Source: Desulfosporosinus youngiae DSM 17734 (GTDB lineage: Bacteria > Bacillota > Desulfitobacteriia > Desulfitobacteriales > Desulfitobacteriaceae). From it: a stretch of DNA of 64,000 nt. Under the pieces are notes generated by a model. The model was given only the letters and a program-made list of their open reading frames with translations. It ran no database searches and was not told the origin of the DNA. Positions 19,743-39,903 of this stretch are shown here, piece by piece. The position numbers were made by a program, and so were the translations under genes. The stretch is taken from the NCBI RefSeq assembly GCF_000244895.1, contig NZ_CM001441.1, positions 3,926,226 to 3,990,225 on the forward strand. The letters are read 5' to 3'. The stretch's first letter is position 1; each line of letters begins with the position of its first letter.

Positions 19743-20495
19743 CTATTTATCCAGCGTCTTTCCAATTAATGAGGGTTCTAAAACAACATCATCTCTACCC
19801 TCTTTTCCATTATCCAGCAAACCAAACTTCTTTTTAATTCGTTCCAGCTTTTTAATCCAAGGATTAGCTAAAACCACGAGAAAGATCAAGGTAGAAAGAG
19901 CGTGCGTAAAATCAAACCAGAAACTGGAGATGTAAGCTGCAATAACGGCCTGATAGGTGATGGGTTCAATAAAGCCAATGATATACCAAATATTCATGAC
20001 CCAACCAAAGCCAAAGCCTGTCATAAAACCGAAGACGGCTAAACCCGGCCTGCTTTTCAGCCAACCGGCGTTTCTGAGCATTCCGGCCGCAAAGCCGATC
20101 ATTCCCCAGCAAAACATCTGCCACGGGGTCCATGGCCCTTGCCCGAAAAACAGATTAGAGGTGAGTGCCGCTACAGCACCTGTCAAAAAACCGGCCTCCG
20201 GTCCAAACACCATAGCGGTAATAATCACGACAGCCGAGGTGGGTTTAAAATGAGGGATCGGGGCAAAAGCCACTCGCCCTAAAGCACCAATTCCGGCCAT
20301 GACTGCGATAACTACCAGCTCCCTGGCCTCTGGCCTGCGTCTTTCAAAACTCAGGAAAAAAGGAATCATGATCAGAATGATCAATAAAATACTCAATAAA
20401 CCATAATTCTTATCTCCCCTCAACGTTGAAACGACCAATAAGCAGGGCACTGTCATCATCAATACCCAACGGATTATGCGAATCCTATTTGACAT
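19743..20495 (-). CDS. cbrT: ECF transporter substrate-binding (S) component, CbrT-like
   Basis: 250 aa membrane protein with about six or seven helices. It resembles the S component annotated as CbrT, the predicted cobalamin-specific subunit of an ECF importer: RVAFAPIPHFKPTSAVVII, then FGPEAGFLTGAVAAL and GPWTPWQMFCWGMIGFAAG. It would bind the corrinoid at the membrane and toggle with the energising module. The ATG lies inside the end of cbrU (22 nt overlap). It is the last gene of the riboswitch-controlled operon, which independently supports a cobalamin substrate. The C-terminal 35 residues are a charged cytoplasmic tail. Substrate choice is inferred, not shown. Confidence 0.85.
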   Translation of the reverse strand: MSNRIRIIRWVLMMTVPCLLVVSTLRGDKNYGLLSILLIILIMIPFFLSFERRRPEARELVVIAVMAGIGALGRVAFAPIPHFKPTSAVVIITAMVFGPEAGFLTGAVAALTSNLFFGQGPWTPWQMFCWGMIGFAAGMLRNAGWLKSRPGLAVFGFMTGFGFGWVMNIWYIIGFIEPITYQAVIAAYISSFWFDFTHALSTLIFLVVLANPWIKKLERIKKKFGLLDNGKEGRDDVVLEPSLIGKTLDK

Positions 20496-22183
20496 TGTTT
20501 AATCACATCCTTGCAAGTAACCGCTTGGGAAAAGATGCCCCGGGCCATGCGGTTGGCTGCGGTTGTGTAAAAGCTATTCCCGGCAAAAAACTCCCGGGGA
20601 TTCCCCTCCGAGACGATCTCTCCATCAAACATCATGGCACAGCGATCCCCGTATTCAGCCGCAAATTCAAGGTCATGAGTCACTACAACAATCGCTGCCC
20701 CTTGAGAACGCAGACGGAAGAAAATCTGGGCTAATCCTTCCTTAGAATAAGCGTCCAGTCCTTTAGTCGGTTCATCAAGCAGGATAACCTTGGGCTGGAG
20801 GAGCAGAAGCTTGGCTATCCCGGCCTTTTGCTGCTCTCCTCCGCTTAAATCATAGGGATGACGCCGAGCCAGCTCTTCAATGCCCAATTCTTCCATCACT
20901 TTGGAGATTGTCAGCTCTCGTACGGTCTTATCCCGGCTGATCAGCTCTGCCGCTTCTTCCAGGTCCCCCCGCACCGTATCCGATACAAACAGTGCTTTAG
21001 GATTCTGGGGCAACATCGCCAAATTATGCCGATAGAGTTCACCGTATTTAAAATCCGTCAGCTTTTTCCCATCCACCCATACCTGCCCTCTTTTTATTTT
21101 CAGGACTCCGGACAGCACACCTAAAAGAGTGGTCTTGCCTGTGCCATTGCCGCCCAGCACACAAAGCGTTTCTCCGGCGTAAGCCTGCAAGGACACGCCC
21201 CTCAAGATGTCACTTCCTTCTGCAGAATACTTAAACCAGATTTCCTTGGTTTCAAGGGCCGGCCTGCTTCGCTCCGCCTTTGTGTTTCCAGTCCAAACAG
21301 ATTTTGCCGGCTGACCCATCTGATCCAGGCTATCCGTTTCAGCCAAATTAGGCAGAACCTGCTGAATCAGCCATTGCCGCCCTTCCCGCACAGTCAAAGG
21401 ACACTTCTCCCCTATCGGCAATTCACTATAAATCCGAATAGGCGATGGCAGACCTTTAAAGATCACCTTACTGCTGTCCGCCCCTAACACCTGGGCAACT
21501 TTCTCCGGCTTGTCAGCACAGAAGACCTGCCCCCCTTCCATCACAACCACCCTGTCGGCCAGGGGAAAGACTTCCTCCAGCCGGTGTTCGCTTAAAATGA
21601 CCGTAACGCCCAAGTCACGATTAATCTTTTCGATCATGGCGAGAAACTCCTGGGCAGCAATAGGGTCCAGCTGAGCGGTAGGCTCATCCAATAAAAGCAA
21701 TTTTGGCTGCATGGCCATGATTGAAGCTAGATTTAAAATTTGCTTTTGCCCTCCGGATAAATCATCCACTGATTTTCTGAACCAGCTGTCAATCCCGAAA
21801 AAGCTGGCCATTTCCGCGACCTTCCGCCGGATCTCCCCCTTCTCCAGCCCTAAGTTTTCCAGACCAAAGGCCAGTTCATGCCAGACCCTGTCCGTCACAA
21901 TCTGAGTCTCGGGATTTTGCAGCACAAAGCCAATCTCTGTGACGGCAGTCCGTTGATCTAAGTGTTCAATTTCTACACCTGCGTAGCAGACTTCCCCACG
22001 TTTATGACCATGAGGCGCCAATTCCCGTTTGATATGACGAAGTAAGGTGCTTTTACCGCATCCGGACACACCAATAAGCAGAATCAGCTCTCCCTCCTCC
22101 ACCGCCAGATTGATCTTATCCAGTGCTTTGTGCGAGGATTCAGGATAAGTAAAGCTTAAATCATTGATTTGTAAGAGCGCCAT
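20474..22183 (-). CDS. cbrU: ECF transporter duplicated ATPase, CbrU-like
   Basis: 569 aa with two complete ABC ATPase halves in one chain, replacing the usual EcfA1/EcfA2 pair. Half 1 has GVSGCGKSTLL, LSGGQKQILNLA and LLLDEPTAQLDP. Half 2 has GGNGTGKTTLL, LSGGEQQKAGIA and ILLDEPTKGLD. It powers corrinoid import with CbrV and CbrT. Its start overlaps cbrV by 28 nt and its end overlaps cbrT by 22 nt, so the three are translationally coupled. AAGGGAG precedes the ATG. All catalytic motifs are intact. Confidence 0.92.
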   Translation of the reverse strand: MALLQINDLSFTYPESSHKALDKINLAVEEGELILLIGVSGCGKSTLLRHIKRELAPHGHKRGEVCYAGVEIEHLDQRTAVTEIGFVLQNPETQIVTDRVWHELAFGLENLGLEKGEIRRKVAEMASFFGIDSWFRKSVDDLSGGQKQILNLASIMAMQPKLLLLDEPTAQLDPIAAQEFLAMIEKINRDLGVTVILSEHRLEEVFPLADRVVVMEGGQVFCADKPEKVAQVLGADSSKVIFKGLPSPIRIYSELPIGEKCPLTVREGRQWLIQQVLPNLAETDSLDQMGQPAKSVWTGNTKAERSRPALETKEIWFKYSAEGSDILRGVSLQAYAGETLCVLGGNGTGKTTLLGVLSGVLKIKRGQVWVDGKKLTDFKYGELYRHNLAMLPQNPKALFVSDTVRGDLEEAAELISRDKTVRELTISKVMEELGIEELARRHPYDLSGGEQQKAGIAKLLLLQPKVILLDEPTKGLDAYSKEGLAQIFFRLRSQGAAIVVVTHDLEFAAEYGDRCAMMFDGEIVSEGNPREFFAGNSFYTTAANRMARGIFSQAVTCKDVIKQCQIGFA

Positions 22184-23043
22184 TGCACATTCTCCCTTAA
22201 TTCGATCAGACTAGGCATTAAGGCCAGGGCAAAAAAACACAGATACATTCCCAGCGCCGGAGAAGATGTTTTGAGGGGGGCTATCGACGGGTAAAAGCGC
22301 ATCACACCATAGCCCGCAAAATAACCGGCCCAACAGAATGCACCCAGAGCCATGATGATGCCCAACATAACCCCATCCCGCCGGGAAAATTTAAACAGAG
22401 AAAAGGTGGAGCGGTTTTTTAAGCCATACCCCCTGGCTTTCATAGAATCTGAAGTTTCTATCCCGTCTTCCATCGCCCAGCTGAGCAGGATGGAAATCGT
22501 TCTCATTCCCCGCCGAATTCTTTGCCTGACCTGCCCTTCTTTTGCATCCAGACCGATGGCATGCTGAGCGGCGGTGATCATTTTCAACTGACCGCGCAGC
22601 TTGTAGACCATTCTGATGCTCATCGTAATCAACAGGGCAATCGAAGGTATCACTTTAGCGAATAAGTACAAAAACTTATCCGAGGTTATGACTTTGTTGT
22701 AACAAGAAAACCAGACAATGATCCCGATCAGGGAGGCTGCGGAACAAAGACCATACATGGTGGCTTCCAGGGTAATGGGATTATCCCTGAAGAAGAATAA
22801 AACCGTTTTCCCCCGATGATTTAATAAAGGATTTGCCAGTGCAACCAACAAAAACATGGGCAGTCCAAATTTAAGATTGAAGCGAAGTCCCTTTAGACCA
22901 TTCAAAAACCAGGAAAACAGGCAGGCTGAGATTAGATTCAGGCCAACGAACACGGGATGCATCAAAAGCATGGCTAATATGAAAATCAAGACAAAAAAGC
23001 TGAAACTAACCACAGGATGATACGAGGCAAACGCCTTATTCAT
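22156..23043 (-). CDS. cbrV: ECF transporter membrane (T) component, CbrV-like
   Basis: 295 aa with about six membrane helices. The cytoplasmic coupling region shows the EcfT hallmark DSMKARGYGLKNRS (an 'ARG' motif that docks on the ATPase). It is a scaffold between the duplicated ATPase CbrU and the S component CbrT. It lies 26 bp after the DUF4430 lipoprotein gene and overlaps cbrU. Its dedicated place beside one S component argues for a group I (single-substrate) ECF system. Confidence 0.88.
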   Translation of the reverse strand: MNKAFASYHPVVSFSFFVLIFILAMLLMHPVFVGLNLISACLFSWFLNGLKGLRFNLKFGLPMFLLVALANPLLNHRGKTVLFFFRDNPITLEATMYGLCSAASLIGIIVWFSCYNKVITSDKFLYLFAKVIPSIALLITMSIRMVYKLRGQLKMITAAQHAIGLDAKEGQVRQRIRRGMRTISILLSWAMEDGIETSDSMKARGYGLKNRSTFSLFKFSRRDGVMLGIIMALGAFCWAGYFAGYGVMRFYPSIAPLKTSSPALGMYLCFFALALMPSLIELRENVQWRSYKSMI

Positions 23044-23069
23044 TCTTCTCTTCCTTCCTTTTCCTGCCT

Positions 23070-23858
23070 CTACTCACTCAACCAGGTCTGTCCCAGATCC
23101 TTACCTAAGTCGCAGGTGTAATTCCACTCAATCAGATCTCCCGGTTTGAGCTTGTATTCTCCACAGCCATAATTGGGATATACTTTATTGACACAATACA
23201 TCCAACCGCTCAACGGGCCTCCGTCGAATTCATACAAATTACTGATCCCCTGAATATAAGGGGTACCCTTCGAACCTTCATACTCCATATGAATTTTATG
23301 TTGGCGTACCACTTGTTTCAGAGCGTCAAACACCTTTTCTCCCTCTTTAAATTCCACGACCGTGGGAGGCAGGATAATTCCGTCGGCAGGCACTGCCTCC
23401 TGAAATTGTTCCTTAAGGTGAAAACCCTTAGCTACGAAAGTTTGGCAACTAATCGAGAAGGTGACGGTATTTTCAGCAGTAGTATTTGGCTGAGGGACCG
23501 GAGGGGCTGTAAGAGCCGGAACGGCACCCTCACTTGAACCAGAGCTGCCGGAACTGGGCGGGCTCACGGCTGAAGCTGACTTGCTCTCCTGATTTTCTGA
23601 GGAGGGCTGATCAGATTGACTCTCTTGCGTGCTTGGCTCCAAAGCGGCGTGAACAGCCTGAGTATTGTCGGGCTGTTGCTCAATACGTTTCCCATCGGTT
23701 TCAAGCGCACTGCTCTCCTCTGCTTTCCAGGCTGAATCATCCACCGATTTAGTGATTCCCGCCGGCAGATCGCCGTTGGCAATCTTGGTTCCTCCGCAGC
23801 CGGTTAAGACAAGGGACAGCAGCATGATCAGGATGAGTAAAACAGAAACTTTTTTCAT
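23070..23858 (-). CDS. DUF4430 (transcobalamin C-terminal-like) lipoprotein
   Basis: 262 aa. A signal peptide with lipobox LTGC (lipidated Cys21) tethers it to the outer face of the membrane. A Ser/Gln/Glu-rich flexible linker (about 30-130) leads to a DUF4430 domain (about 131-253). Typical DUF4430 features are present: VTFSI strand, GEKVFDALKQVV helix, GWMYCVN and YKLKPGDLIEW. DUF4430 is classed with the C-terminal beta-domain of transcobalamin and intrinsic factor. Sitting just upstream of cbrV, it is the natural candidate for the membrane-proximal corrinoid receptor that feeds the ECF transporter. Several Cys (138, 222, 232, 249) are present. Ligand binding is unproven. Confidence 0.85.
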   Translation of the reverse strand: MKKVSVLLILIMLLSLVLTGCGGTKIANGDLPAGITKSVDDSAWKAEESSALETDGKRIEQQPDNTQAVHAALEPSTQESQSDQPSSENQESKSASAVSPPSSGSSGSSEGAVPALTAPPVPQPNTTAENTVTFSISCQTFVAKGFHLKEQFQEAVPADGIILPPTVVEFKEGEKVFDALKQVVRQHKIHMEYEGSKGTPYIQGISNLYEFDGGPLSGWMYCVNKVYPNYGCGEYKLKPGDLIEWNYTCDLGKDLGQTWLSE

Positions 23859-23880
23859 AGTAGCTCCCTTCCTTCAGCGT

Positions 23881-25887
23881 TTATGGAGTGCCGGCTTGGA
23901 GAATCTGCTTTAGGGCCTGCAGCGTGCTGTCGGATATAACGGCGGCGCCGCCCAGAACATAGGTCTCTGTGACAAGATCGCGGGCCGAGCGGAGAAGCTG
24001 CTCTTGCCCGCCGGTCAAACCTTTTCCCTCATTTGATCCTCGTTCGGTCAGTAAAATCCAGGCATTAGACTGACCGGCAACGGCTGCCCCGGCCAAGGCA
24101 TCGGCAAACCCGCCTCCGGTAGCTACAAAGATTTTTGTGGGATTAGGCTGGAGTTGACCCAAAACTATGGCATTGGTATCATAAAGGGTTTGGCCGCTAT
24201 AGCGTTTCGGGTCAGGAAGTATTTGTTCTAATTCCAGCGGCAGTACGGCTGTGCCGCCGATCAGGAGGGTTTGTTTGACTCCCAGTTCAGAGATAGCCTG
24301 CCCTGTCGGCTTAGGCAGTTGGGCAGATCTATCTGCATAGAGGACGGGCACACCGTTATAAGCCGCCCAAGCTGAGATGGAGAGCGCATCAGGGTAGCTG
24401 TGACTATAATCTCCGCTGACGATCACAGCCTGCCCTTGAGTCCCCAGCAGTTTAGCAATTTCATAAGCCGTGGAGTAGTGATCGTTGCCGGATACTCTCT
24501 GTACGTCAAGTCCCGCTTGATCTAAGACAGCGGACACCTGTCTGCCAATTGCGCCCTCTCCTCCCATGATCAAAACCTTTTTTGCTCCCAAGGCTCGAAT
24601 TTCATTAAAAACCTGACTCGGCAGTTGATCAGAGGGAGTCAGCAAGAGGGGTGCCTGATACTTCCTGGCCAAAGGCACAGCCGGCAGAGCATCGGCCGAA
24701 ACATCCCCCCGGGCAAGAATGACCGTTTCTGCTCCCTGCGGGAAATTCCGTTTAGCAATTTCCACCGCTGTAGCGTAACAATCCGCTCCGGCGATTCGCA
24801 GGATCTCAGGCATCGCAGGGCCGGTTTGTTCATTAGAAAGGGCTGGAATAGAAATAGGCTTTTCCGGATGATAGTCATACAAACCGGACTTTTCATCCTG
24901 AAACCTTACATAGGCCGCTAGCGCAATCAAGGCTTGTTCTGAAGCCATAGGGTTCGTGCTGTCCTCTAAAGTGTGTCTAAAACCGCCATCATTGGACTTG
25001 AATTTAAGCAAATCACTTAACAACGTGTTGGAATTCTTAATAAAACGGGCATCCGTATCTATGTCGATCCCAATGGAACACAGAGCGATGATCGTCTGAC
25101 AGACACTTTCACTGTTTTTCGTGCCCCAGGATCTGAAGCCCCCGTCCGCTTCCTGGGCCTGAGCTAAATAAGCCAGAGCCTTATCTACGACCGCTTTCAC
25201 CTCAGGCAGCCCTGCCCTGTAGTATGGAGCCAAGCCTTGGATTGCCATGGCGGTAATATCCACATCCCCATTTCCAGTACCATCCAAGGAAAAGCCTCCA
25301 TCGGACAATTGCTTGCTTAAAATAATCTCTAATAGTTTATCCCGCGTCCACTTGGCCGTGGCAGGCAGCTCATATCTGCCGCTGTCCAAGGCAATCAAAG
25401 CAAAAATTGGTCCATTAATACCTTGGGCTTCAATGTTAGGATAGTTATAAATCTCGGCGATCAAATCTTTGCCGCCGTAATCCTGGGGATTTCCCTGAGC
25501 TGCCCCAACTGCCAAACTGATTCTGGCCAGATCTGTCACCTTTCGCAAAATAGAATTCCAATTCTGTTGGATATATTTTTCATTCTCCGCCAGGTAAACG
25601 GAGAGCCCATCATACCGTTCCAGTCTGCCCAGGCCAATTGTCGGCCAGTTATACACTGTAGGGTCGACAATCTCTTGCTCAGACGCTGTCTGAAAAGCGG
25701 CTTGAATAGATGCCCTTTCCCATTGCTCTAAAGCATTGATTACCTGATCCACCGTCGTGCGGCTCGCTGTTCCTTGGTTGGCTGCAGTCTGAGCTTGGGC
25801 TTCCGCGGCTAAACCGGTCACTAACGTACTCAGCAGCAGCAGGCAGGTCAGAAACGTTCCTAAACCCTGTTTAATTATTCTTTTCAT
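23881..25887 (-). CDS. Secreted alpha/alpha-barrel protein with three CWB2 wall-binding repeats
   Basis: 668 aa. Signal peptide is 1-28. Residues about 42-337 form an alpha/alpha-barrel of the prenyltransferase/squalene-cyclase-like type, with repeated DGGF units (DGGFSLDG, DGGFRSWG, DGGFRHTL) and a VDITAMA helix. The same fold forms the N-terminal domain of transcobalamin and intrinsic factor, and VDITAMA resembles a segment I recall from those proteins. Residues about 362-665 are three cell-wall-binding repeat 2 units (RIAGADCYATAVEIAK, RVSGNDHYSTAYEIAK, RYSGQTLYDTNAIVLG) that anchor proteins non-covalently to wall polymers. With its neighbours it would be a wall-held corrinoid binder. Confidence 0.85.
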   Translation of the reverse strand: MKRIIKQGLGTFLTCLLLLSTLVTGLAAEAQAQTAANQGTASRTTVDQVINALEQWERASIQAAFQTASEQEIVDPTVYNWPTIGLGRLERYDGLSVYLAENEKYIQQNWNSILRKVTDLARISLAVGAAQGNPQDYGGKDLIAEIYNYPNIEAQGINGPIFALIALDSGRYELPATAKWTRDKLLEIILSKQLSDGGFSLDGTGNGDVDITAMAIQGLAPYYRAGLPEVKAVVDKALAYLAQAQEADGGFRSWGTKNSESVCQTIIALCSIGIDIDTDARFIKNSNTLLSDLLKFKSNDGGFRHTLEDSTNPMASEQALIALAAYVRFQDEKSGLYDYHPEKPISIPALSNEQTGPAMPEILRIAGADCYATAVEIAKRNFPQGAETVILARGDVSADALPAVPLARKYQAPLLLTPSDQLPSQVFNEIRALGAKKVLIMGGEGAIGRQVSAVLDQAGLDVQRVSGNDHYSTAYEIAKLLGTQGQAVIVSGDYSHSYPDALSISAWAAYNGVPVLYADRSAQLPKPTGQAISELGVKQTLLIGGTAVLPLELEQILPDPKRYSGQTLYDTNAIVLGQLQPNPTKIFVATGGGFADALAGAAVAGQSNAWILLTERGSNEGKGLTGGQEQLLRSARDLVTETYVLGGAAVISDSTLQALKQILQAGTP

Positions 25888-25965: not shown

Positions 25966-28900
25966 TCACTCCGGGCTTTCTGTACTTACCGTACCCTCTA
26001 TACTTTCAGTTCCTTCAGGTGAGGGGGTTAGAGCAGAGCGAAGCGCGCTTTCCTGATCCGCCCTGATAATTCCTTCTCCACCTAGAATAATTAGCTCAGA
26101 CTGCTGAGTCTGATGGTTATGCAGGAAATTCAAAGTGGAGCTGGGGATCCCCTCGTTAACTAAGACAATAGGGGAAAGCGTGCGCGCTGCAAGATTGCCT
26201 GCTGTAAGCGCATCCGCAAAGTTCAGCCCGGTAGCTACATACACCTTGCTTGGATTAAGCTCTAATCCTTCGGCAAGCTTGGTGGCTGTCTCGTAAAGAT
26301 CCACTCCGCCATAACGCACAGCCCCCGGCAGTTGCCGATAGATTTCCTCAGGCACAACATAGCCGCCGCCTACAACCAGGGTTTGACTTACTTTTTGATC
26401 GGCTAAGGCCTGGAGCGTCTCAGCCGGCAAAGCGGTTCGCTCTGTGAAAAGAATCGGTATGCCATGATAACCGGCATAGCTGGAGATTGCCAAAGCATCC
26501 GCATAGCTGGCAGGTCCTCCATTGGCGATCACAGCTTGGCCCGTAGTTCCCAGAGTTTTGGCAATCAGAGCAGCCGTTTCATAAAGATCCCTACCGCCGC
26601 AGCGTATAACATTTTCTGCTCCATAAAGCTGATTGAGCTGATCCTGAATGACTTGGGAAATAACGCTGGTTCCTCCAATTAAGGTTACTTTTTTAGGATT
26701 TAGCTTCTTTAACTGCTCAAACGTCGAAGGGGTTAAAACGGCAGCCTCAGTCAGCAAAATCGGGGCCTGGTTTTTATAGGCCAAAGGTACAGCGGCCAAA
26801 ACATCCGAATAAGCATAGGCATTGGCCAGTATCACATGATCCGCCCCGGCTTTCCAGCCGTAAGCGGAGGCTTGGTTGGCCGTGTCATAACGTTCCTGCC
26901 CGGCGATCCGCTTCGGGGTGGGCGCCGTATCAGCCATTACCGCATAGGTGGAAAAATGATAGGTGGTCAGTGAAAGGGTCTTCGCGCTCGAATCATACAC
27001 TCCGCCCTGTTTGACCCAATCCCCTTTGGCTGAATTCCACAAATAAAACGCAAGTTGCCTTGTCGATACCCCTTCCGGCAGATCCTCTGGGTTAATGGGG
27101 AAGGTCAAGGTCACCGGGGAGGCAAACTCAACCCTATCCTGAGCCTGATCCACCAAGCTAAACTCACGCTGGTATTTGATGGGATCAAGCACCATGGCTC
27201 CTAGCTCAGCCTGGGGAGGAACTGTCACCTGTCCTACCTCCACGGAAAATTGTACCGGACCACTCCAAAGCCTGAGTGCCCCCGGGGGTATGGTCAGCTG
27301 CACTCCATCCATAGTCTTTAACACCGTCGGCTCTGTATTCTCCGGATTAACAGCGGGAGTATTTTCCGGCAGCCTGGCCGCTGCCAACTGTTCCGGGGTA
27401 ACCGTTTCCAACGTCGCCAAAATCGTTTGATTATAATCTGTATAGTCGATCACTGGAATTACTTCTTCGATGGGAATACTAACCTCCGGCCCCTTGACTG
27501 TCACCGTAGCTTTTTCCGTGCGGGCCATGAGGGGAAAGTTATACCCTTTGTAGGATGAGCCGGAATCAGTTTTGTCTGCATAAACCGTGAAGCTGCCGGA
27601 TCGGTTCATCGTGATCTCAGCTTCACCTTTCGCATCAGTGATGTAGGTTTCTGAACCAACGTGGACCGTAGCTCCGCTCACGGTTGTCCTGGTCGTGGAA
27701 TCTCCCCCATCCACCCCGCCATTGCCTTTAGCGGTAACTTTAACAAGGAGTTTATCCCCGGTGTTTAAGGATGAAGAACTAAGATCGAGATAACCGAATG
27801 AGCTCTTGATATCCCCATAGAACCACTCCACCGTATCCCCGTCCTCAATCTCCCATACCCCGACCCCTTGATTAATCAAGCGGTCGTTAACCCGAACCAG
27901 CCAGCCGCAGGTAGGGTGCTGCGCCTTAAAATCAAATTCCTCTTCCCCGGCCATGCGGGCTACATAGTTGTCGTTAAAGGTCACTTTATTGTCCCGGATG
28001 CTTTTCTTGTTCCAGGCCGCAATCGTAGCCATTAGAACAGTAGGATAGTTAAACGAATATTTTTTTCCGTCCGGATCAGTAATTTCATACTTGCCGGTTG
28101 TCTTATTTTTATAGGTTTCGGGCTTAAAGCTGATATTACCGTCAAAGACAGTTCCCCGGTAGCCCTCAATACGCATCCTGACCTGAAAGGTATCGCTATC
28201 TTCTACCGGATACGGGTCCAACCCGGTGGTGGAAACCACCACCGTCAATGGAACAGGGCGGATGAAATTCCCCTCGGTTTGGGCGGTTATTCCATAGACT
28301 CCCTTTTCATCCGCCTGGAAGGTAACCTGCCCTTTGTCATTGGTATACTTGGTGCTCCCGGCAAATGTGACCGGTTGATCCTCTGTCGGCAAGTACCCTC
28401 CCCCGGAGTAGTTTTCGAGCGTAACCTTGAACTCTGTTCCTGACTTTACCGAAATGTCCTCATTTTTCCCTTCCACACTGAGCCGGGTAAGGCTGGGATT
28501 CCAGAGCTTGCCGCTGACCATGACGATCTGATCACTTTGCTTCAGAGGGGTGGTGGGAAGGGCCATCCCGCTTGTGCCATTGATCAGCCACTGCCAGTCT
28601 TTCTCTTGATCTTTGCCGATCCAGTTAATCATGTTGTTAGCTATTTCATAGGGAACAGCATTCCCATCCAAAGCTTTTTTGACCGCTTCCATGACAGTTG
28701 TTTCACCATCAAAAATTTCGATGCTTTTTTGAGGTAAAAGAGTCTGGCTCAGTCCTTCGACCCGTACACTTACCGTAGCCTGACGGGCGTCATTAACCCT
28801 TAAATTCTTCTGCTGATAGATACCGTTGCTGGTGACATTAACCCGATAATCCCCTGAGTCCATGTCCAAAGCAAATTGATACAGGCCTGCTTGATTTGAG

Positions 28901-32513: not shown

Positions 32514-32524
32514 TATTCTCCTCC

Positions 32525-35500
32525 TCACTGAGCTTGAACAGGCAGCAGGATGGTTTGCACGGGCTCAAGCTGATCCGGAGCTGCCACTTGAATTTTTACC
32601 TGGTAATTTCCGGTCTTGGGAATCCTCAGACTGCCCGGGTATTCCTTGATCAGTCCCGGGGTTAGGGTATCGGTGAGCGAAGAATAGCTGATCACCTGCT
32701 CCGTTCCCTGATTTCCCTTTTGAATCAGGGTAATAGTCAGGCGCACAGACTGAGAACTCAGCTGCTGATTCATTAATTTAATCTTCAGCTCCTGCAGCCC
32801 ACCCAGTTTAAGGACTGAATTACTCACTTTGACTTGCAGGCCCTCCCCCCCGGATAAATCGGTGCCCTGCAGAGCCACTAAGCCTAATTCTCCCATGGAC
32901 AGGAAAACCATTCCTTCGTCAGCCGGGGCGATGGAGTGAGGTACGGTTATGGAAAATTCGTCTTTGATCTCCGCTTGCCAAAGAGGACTGAGCATCTCCC
33001 CTTGTTCACCGGTCAGGTTCAGATCGAAGACATACAAGCCTACCAGCGGAATATACAGCTGCCCATTCTCGCCGATGACCGGGGTATAAAGGCCCTGGGC
33101 CTCCTTCTTCCAACTATTGACCTGGAACTGTCCGTCTACCTGTGCCGTGCCGTCCGGACGAAGGAAGTACAAATGTTTCCGCTCTTGATTGGCCGGAGCG
33201 GAAACGGCGTAAACCATGCCGTTGGGAGCTACAGTGACCACCACCCGCTCAGCCAGCGGATAAACCCATTGCAGCGGATCATCCTTACCCGGATCAAGGG
33301 CAAGAAGACTGACCTGACTCCCTTCCTGCTGCTGAAGGATCAGAGCCCCTGCGGCGGAGCTGCCTTCCAGCTTGAGACCGGCTCCCCCTTTAGTATAAAG
33401 AGATTTTTTTTGTCCATCGGCAGAAAGCTCATACACAGTTGATCCTGAACTATAGTAGGCTTTTCCCGTGGAAGCTGCGGCCAGTCCGCTGACCACCCCG
33501 CCGGCGGCATAGGGCTGATTCCATTGCGGCTCTCCCTTTGCTTTATCCAGCTTGTAAATAAGCCCTCCCTTGGTAAGGGCCAGGACGCTGTCCCCCCCAA
33601 AGACCAGCTTAGCAACCGGGTCGTTGCCGGGGGCTGTGTACCCCCAGAGAACCTTCCCGCTCTGAGCTTCCACGGCAACGACGGCTGTACTGTTAGTGGC
33701 ATAGAGAAAGACATTGCCGTTCTCATCGACTTGAGGTGCGCTGAGGCTGATTCCGTAATAACTGCCCGGATCGGACGTCCACAAAGGGGTGGCATCACTC
33801 CGGCGCACTGCCTGAAGTTGATTCTGGTTGACATAAAAGATCTCCCCCCGGCGTCCTGTCGCCAGCTCCGCCACTTTTTTGCCATAGGAGCCGCCTAAGG
33901 GAAGCTGCCAGAGAATTTCATAAGGGGCGGGCAGAACTTCCAGCTTTACTGTGCAGTAAATCTCCGGATTGTTGATCAGACTGGCCTTCAGGCTGATCGT
34001 GCCTACCTCTTTGCCTGTCAGGTTAGCATTGTAGCGGATGCTGTCATCCCCGCTGCCCCCCTGATAGTTGAGCATGGCTACCTTCCCTGTTTCATCCCCC
34101 TCCTTAATCAGCTCCCACTTGATTAATTGTTTGGGTACAAAATAGCCGCTCTGATCGGCGACAAACACCCGGATCGGACTAAAGGCTTCTCCGTTGACCT
34201 CCGAAAGCTTTTCCCCCACGACTTGGTAGTCGCTCAGGGTTTTACCGGCGTAATCATTCTTATCATAAATAAAGACCATGCTCTGCACTACGGCCTGAGG
34301 CAGCACTGTCACCTGAATCGCTTGGCTCAGGGCAGGGTCCGTGCTGTCCTTAACCTTAACCGTTACCGTCGTTGTGACCTGCTCTTGACCGGGTGTCCGC
34401 TTAGCGGCGGTAATCAAACCATCACTGCTCACCGCGGCTACCTGGGGATCGGCGCTGGACCATTCCAGAGCCACACCGGGCAGACTAACCTCTGCCTGAT
34501 CCAACACTTGGGTCAGCACCCGGCCGCTTTCCTCAGAATAGAGGGTAAGCTCCGGCTGCCCGATAACCAGCTGAACAGGAACCGCCCCTGTCAAATCATA
34601 CAGCCTTGCCTTCTCCAGGGCGTCATAACTTTCTCCAGATTTGATTGCCCTGTACAAGGTTCCGTCCTCAGAAAGGGCAAACATACTGTAATCATTATTA
34701 GGAAAGGACGTATTGGGCTCAGCATAATAGGCCACCACGGTTCCGTCCGGCGCATAAATTCCTCTCGTGGTGTAGAGCAATCCGTCTGCTCCCAGCTGAG
34801 GATCAGGTCCGTTCTTGGGATAAATAACACACAGAGAATAATCTATGGCATAATTCTTGGCGGTCTTAGCACCTGTTGCCAGGTCCAGCTCCACCAGCCT
34901 GCCCTCACTGGAGACCAGCAGCCCTTCAGGCATGATCAGTGGCGGAAAAATCATAACATTCCGGCAGGAGCTGTTCTGCCAGGCTAAACTAACCGGCTGT
35001 CCCCCGCCGGGAGGATTGAGGCAGTAGATTTGATCGGCATTATCCACCAGATAAACTCTGCCGCCTTCGTCCACCGCAGCCTGGGTTTTGAACGAAGCAG
35101 CGGCGGGGGTTTTATATTCCCAGAGCAATTCCCCGTTCAAACCGTTCAGGACGGAAAGGGTATCCCCATGCACCAGATAAACCTGATTGCTCTGATCTAC
35201 GGTTGGAGCGGAATACAAGACCTGGCCGCCTTTAGCATTAAGAATCGGCTGCACAACGGGAAAACTCCAGGTCCATTTCTCATCCGACAGGTCAAGGCTG
35301 TAAAGGGCATTGTTTGCGCAGCTTAAATAAATCTGCCCGTTGGGCCCCAGTCCCGGCATGCCTGTGATCTGGGCCGGCAGCTCCACCTGGCGGAGCACAG
35401 CCCCGGTGTCCGGATCGAGGGCTAAAAGACTCTTTTCCTGCACCACCAGCACATATTCCTGTCCCTCCTGTTCTACTACCCTAGCCGGGAAAAGCTGGGT

Positions 35501-37255
35501 CAGGACAGGGGAAGCAAAACCCGCTTTGGGCCTTCCCTCAGGATCAAGGGCCAGCAGGTACCGTGTAGGCTCGTAAACAACATCACCAAAGGGGTTGGAC
35601 AACACAGTATAACTGGAGCCATCTGACGTCAATGCCGGTTTTCCATGCCCTGGTGTAGTGATTGGCACGGCATACGTCCAAAGGGGGGCCAGCTTTTGAT
35701 TGTAACTGGCTTGGACTTCTACATACCAATCCTTGGAAACACTGGGGATCCCCGATAAAGAAGCTGTCAGCTTCACTTTCCCCAGGTCTTGACCGGTTAT
35801 CTCTTTGGTGACTGTCAGTTTATTTACCAGACCCTGAGCATTGGTCACCAGCGTATATTTTTCCGTTCCGTCGACAGGCACTGCCTGCGGACTATCTGAC
35901 TGCCATTCGAGTTTAAAGTCTGTTCCCTGGGGAACGGGGGAAGGAATGTTGACCGTTGCGGTAAGGGTAAGCATCTCTCCGATTTTTAAGGAGGCCGGGC
36001 GGGCGCTGGAACCGGCCGGAGCAAGCACAATGCTGAGAGGCTGCCCGGTCTTAAAATACCAGCAGTTTGGGCCGCTGGTTCCCGTGATGGCGGGAGAAGT
36101 CTTGCTGCTTCCGGCCACGGGAACCGCTCCGGCTGCCATTTCAAATTTATAGGTTTTATTAAAGGCCAGCGGAACACAGCCCGCTCCCACTTCGCTCCAA
36201 AGAGATTTGCTTAAATCTACCTTCAGCTTGTTCGGCGCCTCCTCATCCCAGGCGACAGGGAGGGAGCTGCTGATCAAAGAACCAGTGCTCAAATAAAGAG
36301 CAACAGCTCCTATCGGGTTCTCCCCGTCAATGGGACGATTGTAGGTAAGGCTGACCTCTTGGGGATTGTAGCCCGGATAGACATTGTTTTGGTTATTCGT
36401 GGGGGTCCGGGCGACAACAGTGAGCTCGGGATCCAGACTGTCTCCCACCGTTACCGCCAAACTGCCTTTAATCTCCCTGTTTTCTTCCAGGGCAGCGGTA
36501 ATGTACACGATACCGGCCAGCTTTCCGGTGACCACCCCGTCACTGTCCACTGAAGCAACTTCCGGCACCTGACTTGTCCAGACCAAGGCCGAAGAGGTGG
36601 TTACCTCATTGCCCTCCTGATCATGAACCATCAGAGGCAGACCGGCTCCGATTGGGACCCGGTTATGCTCATCTGCGGAAGACAGGCTTAGTCCTTCTCC
36701 CGCCAGATTTGCCGGGGCGACTGACTGTTCCGGATTCTCTTGATTTAATGGTTCCTGAATAGTTTGATCTTCTTCACCCTTTTGGCCCTCTTCACTTTCT
36801 TGGCTCTCCGGATTCTCTTGGCTGAGTTCAGGCTCATCCGGTAAAATGTTTAAAACAGCCTGCTGGGTCTGCCCTTCGTAAAAAGCAAAAACTGTGATTT
36901 CAAGCATGTCCTCCCCAGGGTTTTCCGGCACTGTGAAGCTAAGGCGGTCACTGTCCTCCTCCAGAGTCTGCCCTGGCCCCTCTTCAGATTCGGGAAGGCA
37001 ATGCCATTGGATTCCTGTGCCGATAGGGCTTTCTGTTGTTCCAAACCGGGCCTGCAGTGTGACCACATCCCCGCTTCGGTAAGCCTCCTGATCAGGCTCC
37101 ACGGTCAAGCTAAGCTCTGATCCCGGACCTGCCGGAGAGGGCTCCCCCCCTCCCTGCTCAGAACCGGAAGAGGCAGCGGACACAGGCAGACATACGGAAC
37201 CTATTAATAAAAGAAGGACCAGGAACAGATTCAGCCCTTTGTGGGCAAATTTCAT
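32525..37255 (-). CDS. Giant secreted protein with Ig-like domains and two PQQ-type beta-propellers
   Basis: 1576 aa, the largest gene in the window. Signal peptide is 1-28. An Ig-like domain (about 46-138) is joined by an acidic Glu/Gln/Pro linker (140-185) to a BIG2 domain (about 195-272), a Big_5/SbsA-type Ig domain (about 278-405) and another Ig-like domain. Two PQQ-type propellers cover about 520-870 and 1110-1470, separated by BIG2 and other Ig-like domains; a beta domain ends the protein. No transpeptidase, nuclease or protease motif is seen. GGGGGAG precedes the ATG. As part of the cobalamin-controlled operon it could be a surface scaffold or capture protein; no direct evidence of ligand. 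Confidence 0.78.
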   Translation of the reverse strand: MKFAHKGLNLFLVLLLLIGSVCLPVSAASSGSEQGGGEPSPAGPGSELSLTVEPDQEAYRSGDVVTLQARFGTTESPIGTGIQWHCLPESEEGPGQTLEEDSDRLSFTVPENPGEDMLEITVFAFYEGQTQQAVLNILPDEPELSQENPESQESEEGQKGEEDQTIQEPLNQENPEQSVAPANLAGEGLSLSSADEHNRVPIGAGLPLMVHDQEGNEVTTSSALVWTSQVPEVASVDSDGVVTGKLAGIVYITAALEENREIKGSLAVTVGDSLDPELTVVARTPTNNQNNVYPGYNPQEVSLTYNRPIDGENPIGAVALYLSTGSLISSSLPVAWDEEAPNKLKVDLSKSLWSEVGAGCVPLAFNKTYKFEMAAGAVPVAGSSKTSPAITGTSGPNCWYFKTGQPLSIVLAPAGSSARPASLKIGEMLTLTATVNIPSPVPQGTDFKLEWQSDSPQAVPVDGTEKYTLVTNAQGLVNKLTVTKEITGQDLGKVKLTASLSGIPSVSKDWYVEVQASYNQKLAPLWTYAVPITTPGHGKPALTSDGSSYTVLSNPFGDVVYEPTRYLLALDPEGRPKAGFASPVLTQLFPARVVEQEGQEYVLVVQEKSLLALDPDTGAVLRQVELPAQITGMPGLGPNGQIYLSCANNALYSLDLSDEKWTWSFPVVQPILNAKGGQVLYSAPTVDQSNQVYLVHGDTLSVLNGLNGELLWEYKTPAAASFKTQAAVDEGGRVYLVDNADQIYCLNPPGGGQPVSLAWQNSSCRNVMIFPPLIMPEGLLVSSEGRLVELDLATGAKTAKNYAIDYSLCVIYPKNGPDPQLGADGLLYTTRGIYAPDGTVVAYYAEPNTSFPNNDYSMFALSEDGTLYRAIKSGESYDALEKARLYDLTGAVPVQLVIGQPELTLYSEESGRVLTQVLDQAEVSLPGVALEWSSADPQVAAVSSDGLITAAKRTPGQEQVTTTVTVKVKDSTDPALSQAIQVTVLPQAVVQSMVFIYDKNDYAGKTLSDYQVVGEKLSEVNGEAFSPIRVFVADQSGYFVPKQLIKWELIKEGDETGKVAMLNYQGGSGDDSIRYNANLTGKEVGTISLKASLINNPEIYCTVKLEVLPAPYEILWQLPLGGSYGKKVAELATGRRGEIFYVNQNQLQAVRRSDATPLWTSDPGSYYGISLSAPQVDENGNVFLYATNSTAVVAVEAQSGKVLWGYTAPGNDPVAKLVFGGDSVLALTKGGLIYKLDKAKGEPQWNQPYAAGGVVSGLAAASTGKAYYSSGSTVYELSADGQKKSLYTKGGAGLKLEGSSAAGALILQQQEGSQVSLLALDPGKDDPLQWVYPLAERVVVTVAPNGMVYAVSAPANQERKHLYFLRPDGTAQVDGQFQVNSWKKEAQGLYTPVIGENGQLYIPLVGLYVFDLNLTGEQGEMLSPLWQAEIKDEFSITVPHSIAPADEGMVFLSMGELGLVALQGTDLSGGEGLQVKVSNSVLKLGGLQELKIKLMNQQLSSQSVRLTITLIQKGNQGTEQVISYSSLTDTLTPGLIKEYPGSLRIPKTGNYQVKIQVAAPDQLEPVQTILLPVQAQ

Positions 37256-37325
37256 GATATCTCCCCCTATAAACGTTATTATTTTCTATTAAATACTTTT
37301 TTGGGTTTTATTTGGGGACGCCTAA

Positions 37326-37351: not shown

Positions 37352-37405
37352 CCGAGCGGCAGTGTGATATTTAAATTTTCAGAGGGCGGTCAAGAACTTC
37401 TTCTT

Positions 37406-38209
37406 TTACCAGTTTTTATATTCCCATACTACAGAATCGCCAGACTGCAACTCATAAACAGATGCGGCAAAATCAGGTTCGATAATGTTGTTGTTCACAT
37501 CTACTATGGTATACATCCAGCCTTCTGTACCGGAGGCAAAGTCAGCGCCGATCCCGGCCACATAGCTGCCGCCACTGAAAACCGTAAGGTTATTTTCAGC
37601 CCAGTCCGGGTCGGAATAGTATTCATTTCCGGCCATGGCTAAGCCATGCAGAGCAGAGGAATCTTTTTTCAGGGTTTTGCCATTGTCGAGCATCCAGTCC
37701 AGATCGGTGAGATTGACAGTCTCATTAATGACATAAAAGTCATTAACCGTGCCGGGTGCATCCACATAGACGGAGATATCCGATACACTGACAGTAGGAG
37801 AGCCGTCAGTCTCTACGACGACATAAGCACTGACTTCCATGTTGTCATAGTGGGCAGTCACGTAAGCTCTTCCTTCTGTTAAAAGTCTGATTTTGACGGT
37901 ATCCGTCTCATCAATAGTGGCAACAGGGGTTGAACCATCTAAAAACTTAACCACGGAGGAGTCTGAGGTGGTCCACTCAATGTTTTCCGGGTCGGTGATT
38001 TCTTCTGTCATCCAGGTTGTCCCATCCAGACCCAAGACCTGGATATCCGCTACCTCATCATTAACCTCTCCTAAAATAGTGAAGTGTTCGGAATCGGCTA
38101 AGGTAAGCATATCCGTGGCTGCTTTAGCCGGTGCCGGTGCGACAAAGAAGGTTAGTCCCAAGGCCAAACTCATTACTAAACCGAGAAACTTTTGTTTGGT
38201 TTTAAACAT
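37406..38209 (-). CDS. Secreted BIG2-DUF4430 protein, copy B
   Basis: 267 aa. A signal peptide (to about residue 30, AKA) leads to a BIG2-like Ig domain (about 32-133) and a DUF4430 domain (about 141-264, with SALHGLAMAGNEYYSDPDW, EGWMYTIVDVNNN and YELQSGDSVVWEY). It is a tandem duplicate of the next gene. The Ig half is almost unchanged between copies, whereas the DUF4430 half differs more, chiefly at about residues 166-185 and 240-267. There is no lipobox or wall-binding repeat, so it is secreted free or held by partners. GGGGGAA precedes the ATG. It is the second gene after the tandem riboswitches and is likely a corrinoid-binding protein by family. Confidence 0.82.
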   Translation of the reverse strand: MFKTKQKFLGLVMSLALGLTFFVAPAPAKAATDMLTLADSEHFTILGEVNDEVADIQVLGLDGTTWMTEEITDPENIEWTTSDSSVVKFLDGSTPVATIDETDTVKIRLLTEGRAYVTAHYDNMEVSAYVVVETDGSPTVSVSDISVYVDAPGTVNDFYVINETVNLTDLDWMLDNGKTLKKDSSALHGLAMAGNEYYSDPDWAENNLTVFSGGSYVAGIGADFASGTEGWMYTIVDVNNNIIEPDFAASVYELQSGDSVVWEYKNW

Positions 38210-38242
38210 ACTTTTTCCCCCTTTAATCTGATCTTTTAATCT

Positions 38243-39134
38243 GCCCTCTGAAAATTCCGCCCAAAAGATTTAATATAAAGATTTATATTCCCAGACTACA
38301 GAGTCGCCGGGTTGCAGCTCATAGCTGGCTGCAGGATAATCAGGCTCGATAATATTGTTGTTCACATCTACTATGGTATACACCCAGCCTTCCAGGCCGG
38401 AAGCAAAGTCAGTGCCGATCCCGGCCACATAGCCGCCGCCGTTGAAAACCGTAAGGTTATTTTCCGCCCAGTCCGGGTCGGAATAGTATTCATTTCCGGC
38501 CATGGCTAAGGCATGGAGAGCAGAGCAATTTAATTGCAGAGTTTGGCTTTGATCGAGCAGCCAGTCCAGATCGCTGAGATTGACAGTTTCATTAATGACA
38601 TAAAAGTCATTAACTGTGCCAGGTGCATCCACATAGACGGAGATATCCGATACACTGGCAGTAGGAAGGCCTTTTGTCTCCACTACCACATAGGCACTGA
38701 CTTCCATGCTGTCATAGTGGGCAGTCACGTAAGCTCTTCCTTCTGCTAAAAGTCTGATTTTAACGGTATCCGTCTCATCAATAGTGGCAACAGGGGTTGA
38801 ACCATCTAAAAACTTAACCACAGAGGCGTCTGAGGTGGTCCACTCAATATTTTCCGGGTCGCTGATTTCTTCCGTCATCCAGGTTGTCCCATCCAGACCC
38901 AAGACTTGGATATCCGCTACCTCATCATTAACCTCTCCTAAAATAGTGAAATGTTCGGAGTCGGCTAAGGTAAGCATATCCGTGGCTGCCTTAGCAGGTG
39001 CCGGTGCGACAAAGAAGGTTAGTCCCAGAATCAACATCATGAACAAACTGAGAATCTTTTGTTTGGTTTTCATACTCTTTTCCTCCTTTTCATCTAAATC
39101 TACTTTAAATAAGCCCTCTGAAAATTCCGCCCAA
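38243..39134. repeat. 870-bp tandem duplication with 22-bp direct repeat at its borders
   Basis: The 22-bp sequence beginning GCCCTCTGAAAATTCC occurs at 39113-39134 and again at 38243-38264, exactly 870 bp apart, immediately upstream of each DUF4430 copy. It marks the unit that duplicated. Confidence 0.8.
38270..39073 (-). CDS. Secreted BIG2-DUF4430 protein, copy A
   Basis: 267 aa, first gene after the cobalamin riboswitches. Architecture is as in copy B: signal peptide ending near AKA, a BIG2-like domain (about 32-133) and DUF4430 (about 141-264, with SALHALAMAGNEYYSDPDW, EGWVYTIVDVNNN and YELQPGDSVVWEY). AGGAGG precedes the ATG. Being first in a riboswitch-controlled operon, and separated from the giant genes by an attenuator-like hairpin, it is probably the most abundant product. 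DUF4430 similarity to transcobalamin C-terminal domains suggests corrinoid binding, but this is not shown. Confidence 0.83.
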   Translation of the reverse strand: MKTKQKILSLFMMLILGLTFFVAPAPAKAATDMLTLADSEHFTILGEVNDEVADIQVLGLDGTTWMTEEISDPENIEWTTSDASVVKFLDGSTPVATIDETDTVKIRLLAEGRAYVTAHYDSMEVSAYVVVETKGLPTASVSDISVYVDAPGTVNDFYVINETVNLSDLDWLLDQSQTLQLNCSALHALAMAGNEYYSDPDWAENNLTVFNGGGYVAGIGTDFASGLEGWVYTIVDVNNNIIEPDYPAASYELQPGDSVVWEYKSLY

Positions 39135-39139
39135 GATAT

Positions 39140-39164
39140 AAAAAAGAGCCGATGTATTCGGCTC
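39140..39164 (-). terminator. Terminator of gene-proximal cobalamin riboswitch
   Basis: GAGCCGA-TGTAT-TCGGCTC hairpin followed on the minus strand by TTTTTT. It sits 67 nt before the first ATG and about 125 nt after the riboswitch core, as expected for a transcription-terminating expression platform. Confidence 0.88.
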
Positions 39165-39289
39165 AGAGATAATGTGACCCCGCTGTAAAAGATAACGATA
39201 AAAACAGGCAGCCTAAAGTATGCTCCTAGTTCTTCTCATCCACAGCAAAGTTGTTCACGTACTTCCCCCCGAAAGCCTTATGATCCTGA

Positions 39290-39442
39290 ATAGGGCAAGT
39301 CTCCTGACTCGAAGTCATCCTCCTCCCTTGCCTTCCCGGTTTTACCCAGTGGTTTCCATTAAGGGATTCGTCATTCATACAGTAGCGGGGCTGTTCCGGC
39401 TTCTCACCGGATTCCTTATTAATGCTTTTTCAGCAACCCTAA
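39290..39442 (-). ncRNA. Cobalamin riboswitch 2 (gene-proximal)
   Basis: On the minus strand the core elements of the cobalamin aptamer occur in order: GGTTGC near 39438, GAATCCGGTGAGAAGCCGG, the ACAGCCCCGCTACTGTA element, CCACTGGGT, and the B12 box AGTCAGGAGACTTGCC (complement of 39294-39309). It is nearly identical in its central 60 nt to riboswitch 1. When bound to cobalamin it would favour the terminator at 39140 and shut the operon. Confidence 0.93.
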
Positions 39443-39562
39443 TCAGCTATTAAGTTTTGTGAGTATTTATTTAAAATGTTCTTTGCTAATTCTAATTAAT
39501 ACTTGCTCTCTTTTTAATTATCTCACCTCGACTTCTTCCTTTGATGTCTATATAGTGAAAAC

Positions 39563-39589
39563 AAAAAGAGCCGGTTCCTCCGGCTCTTT
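39563..39589 (-). terminator. Terminator of promoter-proximal cobalamin riboswitch
   Basis: AAAGAGCCGG-AGGAA-CCGGCTCTTTTTG hairpin with a T-run on the minus strand. It lies about 90 nt after the B12 box of riboswitch 1 and before riboswitch 2. Confidence 0.9.
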
Positions 39590-39679
39590 GCAAACATGAT
39601 ATAACAAAGTAGGATGTCTCCATCCAAAACTTCAATTTACCACACTTACCTTCCCCCGAAAGAGTTGTGACTTTTGAAC

Positions 39680-39830
39680 ATGGCAGGTATCCTGACTTGA
39701 AATCATCCTCCTCCCTTGCCTTCCCGGTTTCACCCAGTGGTTTCCATTAAGGGATTCGTCATTCATACAGTAGCGGGGCTGTCCTGGCTTCTCACCAGAG
39801 TTCCCATATTAATGCATTTAAGCAACCATA
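39680..39830 (-). ncRNA. Cobalamin riboswitch 1 (promoter-proximal)
   Basis: Complete second aptamer on the minus strand: GGTTGC near 39827, CTCTGGTGAGAAGCCAGG, the same ACAGCCCCGCTACTGTA element, CCACTGGGT, and B12 box AGTCAGGATACCTGCC (complement of 39682-39697). It has its own terminator. With riboswitch 2 it forms a series of two independent stop points for one transcript. Confidence 0.93.
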
Positions 39831-39876
39831 TTCAACCTATTGAGTTATTTCTTTCCGACCCTATATTATCACTTAC

Positions 39877-39903
39877 ATTATACCAATTAATTACCAGAGT
39901 CAA
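39877..39903 (-). promoter_or_regulatory. Promoter of the corrinoid-uptake operon
   Basis: On the minus strand TTGACT (39903-39898), a 15-bp spacer and TATAAT (39882-39877), with an extended -10 (TGGTATAAT). Transcription would start near 39870, about 40 nt before riboswitch 1. No terminator is visible between the acyl-CoA dehydrogenase stop at 40026 and this site, so the riboswitch terminators may also stop read-through. Confidence 0.7.

Follow-up and report, generated by a model that had tools for sequence, protein, structure and literature searches.

The stretch analysed here, 64,000 nt of Desulfosporosinus youngiae DSM 17734 (contig NZ_CM001441.1, positions 3,926,226 to 3,990,225; hereafter the window), belongs to a genome of 5.66 Mb assembled as a single contig. 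It contains an operon of ten minus-strand open reading frames (ORFs), running from 39073 to 19743 with intergenic gaps of −28 to 150 nt, which is preceded by two cobalamin riboswitches and encodes secreted and wall-bound proteins with transcobalamin-like parts, a DUF4430 lipoprotein and an energy-coupling factor (ECF) importer. Its reading as a corrinoid-scavenging system repressed by vitamin B12 is well supported by the match of its S component to CbrT, by a transcobalamin-like fold and by comparison with 79 related loci, of which 78 contain DUF4430, 54 a same-strand riboswitch upstream and 47 the same core gene order. An original prediction, made from the sequence alone, had proposed a corrinoid-uptake operon with transcobalamin-like surface proteins and a CbrT-type importer; the riboswitches, a match to the PDB entry 6FNP and the fold of a fused relative bear it out. 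It counted eight genes, although its own list sums to the ten found here.

All elements of the operon described below lie on the minus strand. Both riboswitch aptamers, the upstream one at 39665..39845 (RF00174, 108.1 bits) and the downstream one at 39277..39456 (RF00174, 116.9 bits), cover the full RF00174 model (1–189) and score above the curated gathering score of 31.5, which confirms the two riboswitches read from the sequence earlier. An expression platform is present, with a hairpin and a T run on the 3′ side of each aptamer; the intrinsic terminator hairpins are located at 39565..39589 (z −3.5) and 39146..39164 (z −3.6), respectively. Since each riboswitch has a terminator hairpin of its own, transcription would have two gates in series to pass. 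Through these riboswitches, the operon is predicted to be turned off by vitamin B12. A plausible sigma-70 promoter, TTGACT and TATAAT separated by a 15-nt spacer, is found at 39877..39903; it corresponds to the single promoter claimed previously and is missing at 39903 from the output of the promoter scan, which accepts spacers of 16–18 nt. The operon ends with a strong hairpin and U run 3′ of the EcfS gene (19690..19740, z −4.2). This is the one closing terminator of the original prediction, which overlooked the separate hairpin behind each riboswitch.

Tandem riboswitches are present at seven of the nine loci of the genus Desulfosporosinus. In genomes G000, G007 and G012, the copies within a pair are 78–81% alike, and each copy is 87–93% alike to its counterpart in the other two genomes; this greater closeness to counterparts than to pair mates points to one old duplication. 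The copies within the pairs of G008, G011, G015 and G017 are only 54–59% alike, which points to a separate origin. Doublets of adenosylcobalamin riboswitches as such are already known, with 26 reported (PMC9481103).

The surface proteins were characterised by Pfam searches, and the signal peptides of genes 1–4 were judged by eye. Gene 1 (38270..39073) encodes a secreted 267-aa protein with a weak C-terminal DUF4430-like domain and gene 2 (37406..38209) encodes its paralogue, which is also weakly DUF4430-like. The two had been named as small DUF4430 proteins from the sequence; a six-frame search gives them 22.8 and 24.8 bits, but the Pfam scores of 21.0 and 23.1 bits lie slightly below the cut-off of 23.8. 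The 1576-aa secreted product of gene 3 (32525..37255) contains two PQQ-type propeller regions and immunoglobulin-like (Ig-like) domains, and the 1108-aa secreted product of gene 4 (29202..32528) contains a PQQ-type propeller, Big_2 domains and a second transcobalamin-like toroid (about 29850–30677). The earlier description of these as large propeller/Ig proteins agrees with the PQQ-type propellers and Big_2 found by Pfam, but the toroid of gene 4 had escaped notice. A BtuG-like nature of the propellers of genes 3 and 4 was considered and found no support: the PDB matches listed comprise BamB, PQQ-type proteins and designed propellers of the PQQ type, with no BtuG (3DSM) among them. PQQ-propeller ORFs occur at only two of the 79 loci, so the propellers of genes 3 and 4 look like lineage accessories.

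Gene 5 (25966..29166) encodes a 1066-aa wall protein with DUF4430 and three CWB2 repeats. It was originally described as carrying two DUF4430 domains; one of them is called by Pfam (27817–28041, residues 376–450), while the other, near residues 135–220, is recognised by eye only. Gene 6 (23881..25887) encodes a 668-aa wall protein composed of an alpha/alpha toroid (Pfam Prenyltrans/SQHop, about 24856–25728) and three CWB2 repeats. Gene 7 (23070..23858) encodes a DUF4430 lipoprotein with an LTGC lipobox at residue 18, which is the conserved partner of the ECF module. The toroid and the beta-grasp (DUF4430) domains are carried by separate window proteins, rather than following each other toroid-first in one chain. 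A toroid profile run on the host genome gives two matches at E up to 0.001, both inside the operon.

The last three genes encode a complete ECF set: EcfT (gene 8, 22156..23043; CbiQ family by Pfam), a double ECF ATP-binding cassette (ABC) ATPase with two ATPase domains in one chain (gene 9, EcfAA, 20474..22183) and EcfS, a CbrT-like substrate-binding subunit or S component (gene 10, 19743..20495). Pfam recovers the wall proteins, barrel and ECF genes that had been read from the sequence, as CWB2, Prenyltrans/SQHop toroid, CbiQ, double ABC ATPase and ECF S component. The only significant PDB match of EcfS is 6FNP chain A (residues 54–229, E 6e-12), the remaining four of its five matches at E up to 10 being antibody chains. 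The 182-residue length of chain A suggests that it is the CbrT S subunit. The entry represents ECF-CbrT of Lactobacillus delbrueckii, which imports cobalamin and cobinamide, the S component being the substrate-binding part of ECF importers (PMC5997447). NCBIfam matches of the window S component are weak and its best Pfam family is the riboflavin one; transport of B12 by the window importer would be expected from its likeness to ECF-CbrT.

To our knowledge, ECF importers normally use no separate extracytoplasmic binding protein. A close S component was found in 12 of the 45 genomes of the host family, and DUF4430 genes are located near it in 11 of these; in the twelfth (G026), the contig stops just upstream of EcfT. 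Within the genus, DUF4430 is present in nine of 29 genomes and the S component in ten, with all nine in common (Fisher p 1e-6, uncorrected for relatedness).

The wider comparison started from toroid alignment A1, which gave at least 598 pattern matches in 84,980 species genomes, at least 554 of them confirmed. The 79 loci are the best 80 of these confirmed matches, with up to 10 kb of flank each; they are biased towards close relatives of the window toroid and are not independent (L089 and L099 share one contig, L113 and L121 one assembly). The ORF starts in the locus annotation are the first start codon after a stop and are possibly too early. The loci span Paenibacillus and other Bacilli, Clostridium, gut Clostridia, Desulfosporosinus and Acididesulfobacillus, among others. 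Gene order, riboswitches, family relations and conservation of the core were computed directly. DUF4430 occurs at 78 of the 79 loci and is fused to the toroid at 50. EcfT and EcfS are found on the same strand at 50 loci; a DUF4430 ORF directly precedes EcfT at 50, and the full order DUF4430 > EcfT > EcfAA > EcfS is kept at 47. Bacterial relatives include 18 units in which the toroid is followed by DUF4430 in one chain, and 21 of the 79 loci, with ECF genes, have the two domains only on separate ORFs.

A covariance model was built from 27 cobalamin riboswitches of the genus and family (alignment A3, 27 rows). It gives 70 matches (E up to 0.01) at 56 of the 79 loci, 67 of the 70 on the strand of the toroid. 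At 54 loci, a toroid or DUF4430 ORF is preceded by a riboswitch on its own strand, at a median distance of 188 nt and within 500 nt at 43; chance would place one within 500 nt at about 0.08 of the 79 loci, a rough expectation taken from the density in the host genome (22 riboswitches), from which other genomes differ. The DUF4430 proteins directly before EcfT constitute a conserved subfamily, with a mean column identity of 58% over 52 sequences and with Ser92, Gly93, Trp94 and Trp120 among the invariant residues of the aligned stretch. In all 51 such proteins, a hydrophobic segment precedes the domain, and 12 have a lipobox-like motif as well. In the window itself, the strongly conserved residues include the GW of LSGWMY (residues 216–221) in the product of gene 7 and, in that of gene 6, Asp210, Thr212, Gln245, Glu260, Gln264 and Gln318. 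A profile of this subfamily (E up to 0.001) matches 20 of 82 genomes of the host class.

Structural comparison supports a transcobalamin-like character of the surface parts, as judged from models. Sequence alignment A4 comprises 72 toroids, two from the window and one each from 70 of the 79 loci, nine loci being omitted. The toroid of gene 6, folded with 71 relatives, yields a model of high confidence (predicted local distance difference test score, pLDDT, 93), for which VIA-align gives intrinsic factor, haptocorrin and transcobalamin at Z 19. Transcobalamin likeness of the toroid could not be established by sequence, and the fold of the toroid taken by itself is ambiguous; the likeness derives from a fused two-domain relative, which is diagnostic where the toroid alone is not. 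This relative is the toroid–DUF4430 unit of L095 (a Bacillus record), folded with 17 relatives (pLDDT 89, predicted template modelling score 0.73). Transcobalamin, haptocorrin and intrinsic factor account for every one of the 15 best PDB matches of its model (E 2e-10 to 6e-9). The transcobalamin beta domain on its own takes the following two places (target template modelling score 0.75), and the first cyclase comes only at E 1.2e-3. The sequence identity of the unit to animal B12 carriers is about 12–16%. DUF4430 of the L095 model is the domain of a wall protein; DUF4430 before EcfT falls in the same Pfam family (52 of 52 alignment members).

The arrangement of the toroid and DUF4430 varies between genomes. 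In G008, G011, G017 and the relative G029, one wall protein combines a toroid with DUF4430, a CWB2 region and another toroid; G015 has these parts split over two consecutive ORFs. The minimal form, found in G012, comprises two riboswitches, a toroid–CWB2 protein, a DUF4430 lipoprotein, EcfT, EcfAA and EcfS. L101 and L115 have the same five genes, with no upstream riboswitch found. The window and G007 carry extras, namely two small DUF4430 proteins, two propeller proteins (genes 3 and 4 in the window) and a DUF4430–CWB2 protein. At the loci of G007 and G004, no close EcfT or EcfAA is present and the DUF4430 gene is followed directly by the S component. In G004, the 19 kb examined contain no toroid, and its DUF4430 protein has its signal end out of frame; here (L050:11577-11975), a riboswitch precedes the DUF4430 gene and S component, and the DUF4430 frame without a signal end may be damaged. 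In G010, two modules form a single run, and EcfT of the second is not preceded by a DUF4430 belonging to that module. In each of the five-gene clusters of G012, L101 and L115, one protein carries the sole toroid and another the sole DUF4430, so a two-part pocket, if required, must be formed by them in trans. These clusters can be regarded as the strongest argument for the toroid and DUF4430 acting in trans.

Corrinoid scavenging through transcobalamin halves at the surface, the DUF4430 lipoprotein and CbrT-like ECF import is a highly probable function of the window operon. At low intracellular levels of cobalamin, transcription would be let through by both riboswitches. The secreted proteins would carry the two halves of a transcobalamin, the toroid in the products of genes 4 and 6 (that of gene 6 bound to the wall) and the DUF4430 beta-grasp in those of genes 1, 2, 5 and 7, and these domains would capture corrinoids outside the membrane; sequence and fold are both consistent with corrinoid binding by the toroid and DUF4430. 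The membrane-anchored DUF4430 lipoprotein (gene 7) would present the corrinoids to the S component, which is CbrT-like, and import would be powered by EcfT and the double ATPase. The conserved gene order makes such a handover from the surface to the importer plausible. What we infer is how the operon is regulated in the cell, that corrinoids are bound and handed over, and what the propeller/Ig proteins do. A more specific proposal, put forward tentatively, is that the wall toroid and the membrane-anchored DUF4430 close over the corrinoid in trans and deliver it to CbrT, as a Bacillota-wide ECF relay and a living relative of the possible bacterial source of animal B12 carriers.

The host genome possesses 22 cobalamin riboswitches, 20 of them outside the operon, and the genes behind ten of these were scanned. 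They (loci L005, L011, L014, L019, L020, L021 and L025) include CbiE/CbiT, CobT, CbiM and the anaerobic ribonucleotide reductase NrdD, together with BtuF-like binding proteins, which score below the curated cut-off, and a ThiC-family protein (BzaB-like below its cut-off). At G000:C1:1825919-1826053 (L026), a NifH/CfbC-like ATPase gene is preceded by a weak cobalamin riboswitch (63 bits, model 47–167).

Several results weigh against scavenging by a transcobalamin-like relay. With its own CbiE/CbiT, CobT and BtuF-like proteins, the host probably does not depend on scavenging as its sole source of corrinoids. Among the Foldseek top 50 of the gene 6 toroid, transcobalamin (rank 2) stands together with prenyltransferases, terpene cyclases and a glucuronyl hydrolase, and VIA-align gives terpene cyclases Z 22–23 and sugar epimerases and glycosidases Z 19–21; as modelled, the window toroid alone resembles terpene cyclases at least as well as transcobalamin. 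The toroid sequence profile, up to E 0.01, finds cyclases and complement-type proteins and no B12 carrier, and Pfam Cobalamin_bind (PF01122) is matched by one of the 72 toroids (E 0.001), that of gene 6 being unlisted up to E 0.01. Likewise, a profile of DUF4430 before EcfT finds no transcobalamin in the PDB at E up to 10, with one meaningless match (E 0.4). The two domains of the ligand-free L095 model are placed otherwise than in B12-bound carriers (root-mean-square deviation about 20 Å over both). At the level of loci, 29 of the 79 are without same-strand EcfT and EcfS, many being cut by contig ends; 13 of these 29, five of them Paenibacillus, have more than 3.5 kb downstream. Two of the 13 carry ECF genes elsewhere in the locus, L133 on the opposite strand and L151, with EcfAA and EcfS, on the upstream side. 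No same-strand upstream riboswitch was found by the rule used at 25 of the 79 loci, including L101 and L115, some being cut off upstream. As to the five-gene clusters, a DUF4430 encoded elsewhere in the genome could serve and would weaken the argument for action in trans; in G012, a further DUF4430 match does lie on another contig (C56). Finally, purified ECF-CbrT of L. delbrueckii moves cobalamin in liposomes without a DUF4430 protein (PMC5997447), and this partner-free transport is the strongest argument against an essential relay.

That result also favours the explanation that the importer works alone and the surface proteins serve mainly for attachment, whether to other cells, to surfaces or to polysaccharides, with co-regulation reflecting a shared need. 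Propeller, Ig and CWB2 domains, all carried by the window, are common parts of adhesins and scaffolds, and the rarity of PQQ-propeller genes (two of 79 loci) fits this view as well. It is nevertheless unlikely: the toroid and DUF4430 occur together at 78 of the 79 loci and are fused at 50, some fusions show the domain order and fold of transcobalamin, and DUF4430 stands directly before EcfT at 50 loci as a strongly conserved subfamily (58%, 52 sequences). The organisation of the wall protein of G008, G011, G017 and G029, with a toroid, DUF4430 and a second toroid in one chain, leads to another explanation, in which each wall receptor is a complete corrinoid binder, its toroid and DUF4430 being combined in one wall protein or supplied by several, and the lipoprotein only docks to or gates the ECF complex, with no transfer chain. 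This explanation, which would also account for DUF4430 before EcfT being a tight subfamily of its own, is possible if doubtful. It fits poorly with G012, L101 and L115, where there is only a toroid without DUF4430, the sole DUF4430 of the cluster being that before EcfT (with the further match of G012 on C56).

The ligand may be a precursor of B12, a lower-ligand base, cobalt or another tetrapyrrole rather than a complete corrinoid. Archaeal members may scavenge a distinct metabolite, as suggested by Burroughs et al. (PMC1796856); the best Pfam family of the S component is the riboflavin one, and the host itself encodes CobT and corrin-ring proteins. Set against the cobalamin riboswitches and the resemblance of the S component to CbrT, for which transport of cobalamin and cobinamide is reported as proven (PMC5997447), such a ligand seems rather improbable. 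An enzymatic role of the toroid, for example as a terpene-cyclase-like or carbohydrate-active protein, would agree with its best structural scores (drimenyl diphosphate synthase and squalene–hopene cyclase, Z 22–23) and with sequence profiles that match the same proteins. It is very improbable, however, for a domain fused to DUF4430 at 50 of the 79 loci and placed behind cobalamin riboswitches at 54, the two-domain form of which matches only B12 carriers at E below 1e-8.

Scavenging with the toroid and DUF4430 as corrinoid-binding halves, the reading preferred here, has a direct precedent. Burroughs et al. (2007) described secreted or wall-anchored transcobalamin-like SLBB proteins of Gram-positive bacteria with alpha/alpha toroid, Ig or propeller domains, encoded in operons with CbiO-like and CbiQ-like genes, proposed that they scavenge B12 or its precursors, and also proposed that animals acquired transcobalamin from low-GC Gram-positives (PMC1796856). 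The general idea of transcobalamin-like B12 scavenging in Gram-positive bacteria was therefore already predicted in 2007, contrary to the earlier expectation that a wall-level capture machine would be new, and the window copy is an unusually elaborate version of a widespread set-up. It shares with the systems of that account the Ig and propeller parts, the paralogous pairs and an operon in which CbiO/CbiQ-like genes accompany those of secreted DUF4430/SLBB proteins. It differs in having tandem cobalamin riboswitches, an S component like CbrT, a conserved DUF4430 partner that is anchored in the membrane, the toroid and DUF4430 on separate chains, and CWB2 anchors; the words riboswitch, lipoprotein and S component are absent from the main text of the 2007 paper (PMC1796856). 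The hosts described there usually lack key enzymes of B12 synthesis (PMC1796856). The window host encodes CbiE, CbiT, CobT and a ThiC-family protein among the genes sampled behind ten riboswitches. As far as searched, what is new comprises the links to riboswitches and CbrT, the pairing of the ECF module with a conserved DUF4430 protein anchored in the membrane, and the split form with its elaborations.

The proposed relay would share its working principle with the Isd heme relay of Staphylococcus aureus. In that relay, wall proteins pass a metal–tetrapyrrole to a membrane lipoprotein and transporter, by means of NEAT domains and a conventional ABC importer; we know of no folds shared between it and the window system. 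The animal carriers transcobalamin, intrinsic factor and haptocorrin have the toroid and then the beta-grasp in one chain, as do the 18 bacterial units, whereas the window halves are on different chains. The S component is related over its whole length to that of L. delbrueckii ECF-CbrT (6FNP), where EcfT and ECF ATPases are likewise found. In L. delbrueckii, however, one ECF module serves several S components and the nrdJ-cbrS-cbrT-pduO cluster, as presented in the source, names no DUF4430 gene (PMC5997447), while 50 of the 79 relatives' loci carry EcfT and EcfS together, plus the DUF4430 partner. BtuG of Bacteroides resembles the proposal in capturing B12 at the surface by a beta-propeller lipoprotein encoded beside B12 transport genes; it is a seven-bladed partner of the Gram-negative BtuB (PMC6143338), whereas the window propellers match the PQQ/BamB type by sequence.

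Capture of B12 outside the membrane is poorly known in Gram-positive bacteria, and among the titles listed from the openly licensed literature, none was seen to present an experimental test of a bacterial transcobalamin-like protein. The conserved core and the five-gene forms (G012, L101 and L115) make the question testable with few purified proteins. Concrete bacterial two-domain relatives are now available for the 2007 proposal on the origin of animal transcobalamin, and some of the related loci belong to gut Clostridia, in whose habitat competition for corrinoids is of importance. Most worth attention are the split transcobalamin and the conserved, membrane-anchored DUF4430 protein that partners the ECF importer.

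The next gene downstream of the operon (17469-19550, minus strand) encodes a sigma-54 activator with CBS and PAS domains, and the genes upstream encode an acyl-CoA dehydrogenase, a short-chain dehydrogenase and a thiolase; no link of the operon to these flanking genes was seen in the window. Some of the related loci show further peculiarities. Anaerovorax sp. IOR16 encodes a free-standing 443-aa protein (L156:3099-4430, minus strand) with a lipobox-like motif, in which the toroid is followed by DUF4430; this is the domain order of animal transcobalamin, which is also of about this size. A second EcfT-like gene lies behind EcfS at L133, L140, L153 and L166. At L153:1292-4959, three successive cobalamin riboswitches each precede a DUF4430 ORF; the first two of these ORFs, both of 138 aa, have equal match positions and E-values and are apparently near-identical copies. 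The 2063-aa protein encoded at L148:5180-11371 contains nine DUF4430-like repeats of about 95 residues ahead of a toroid–DUF4430–toroid unit.

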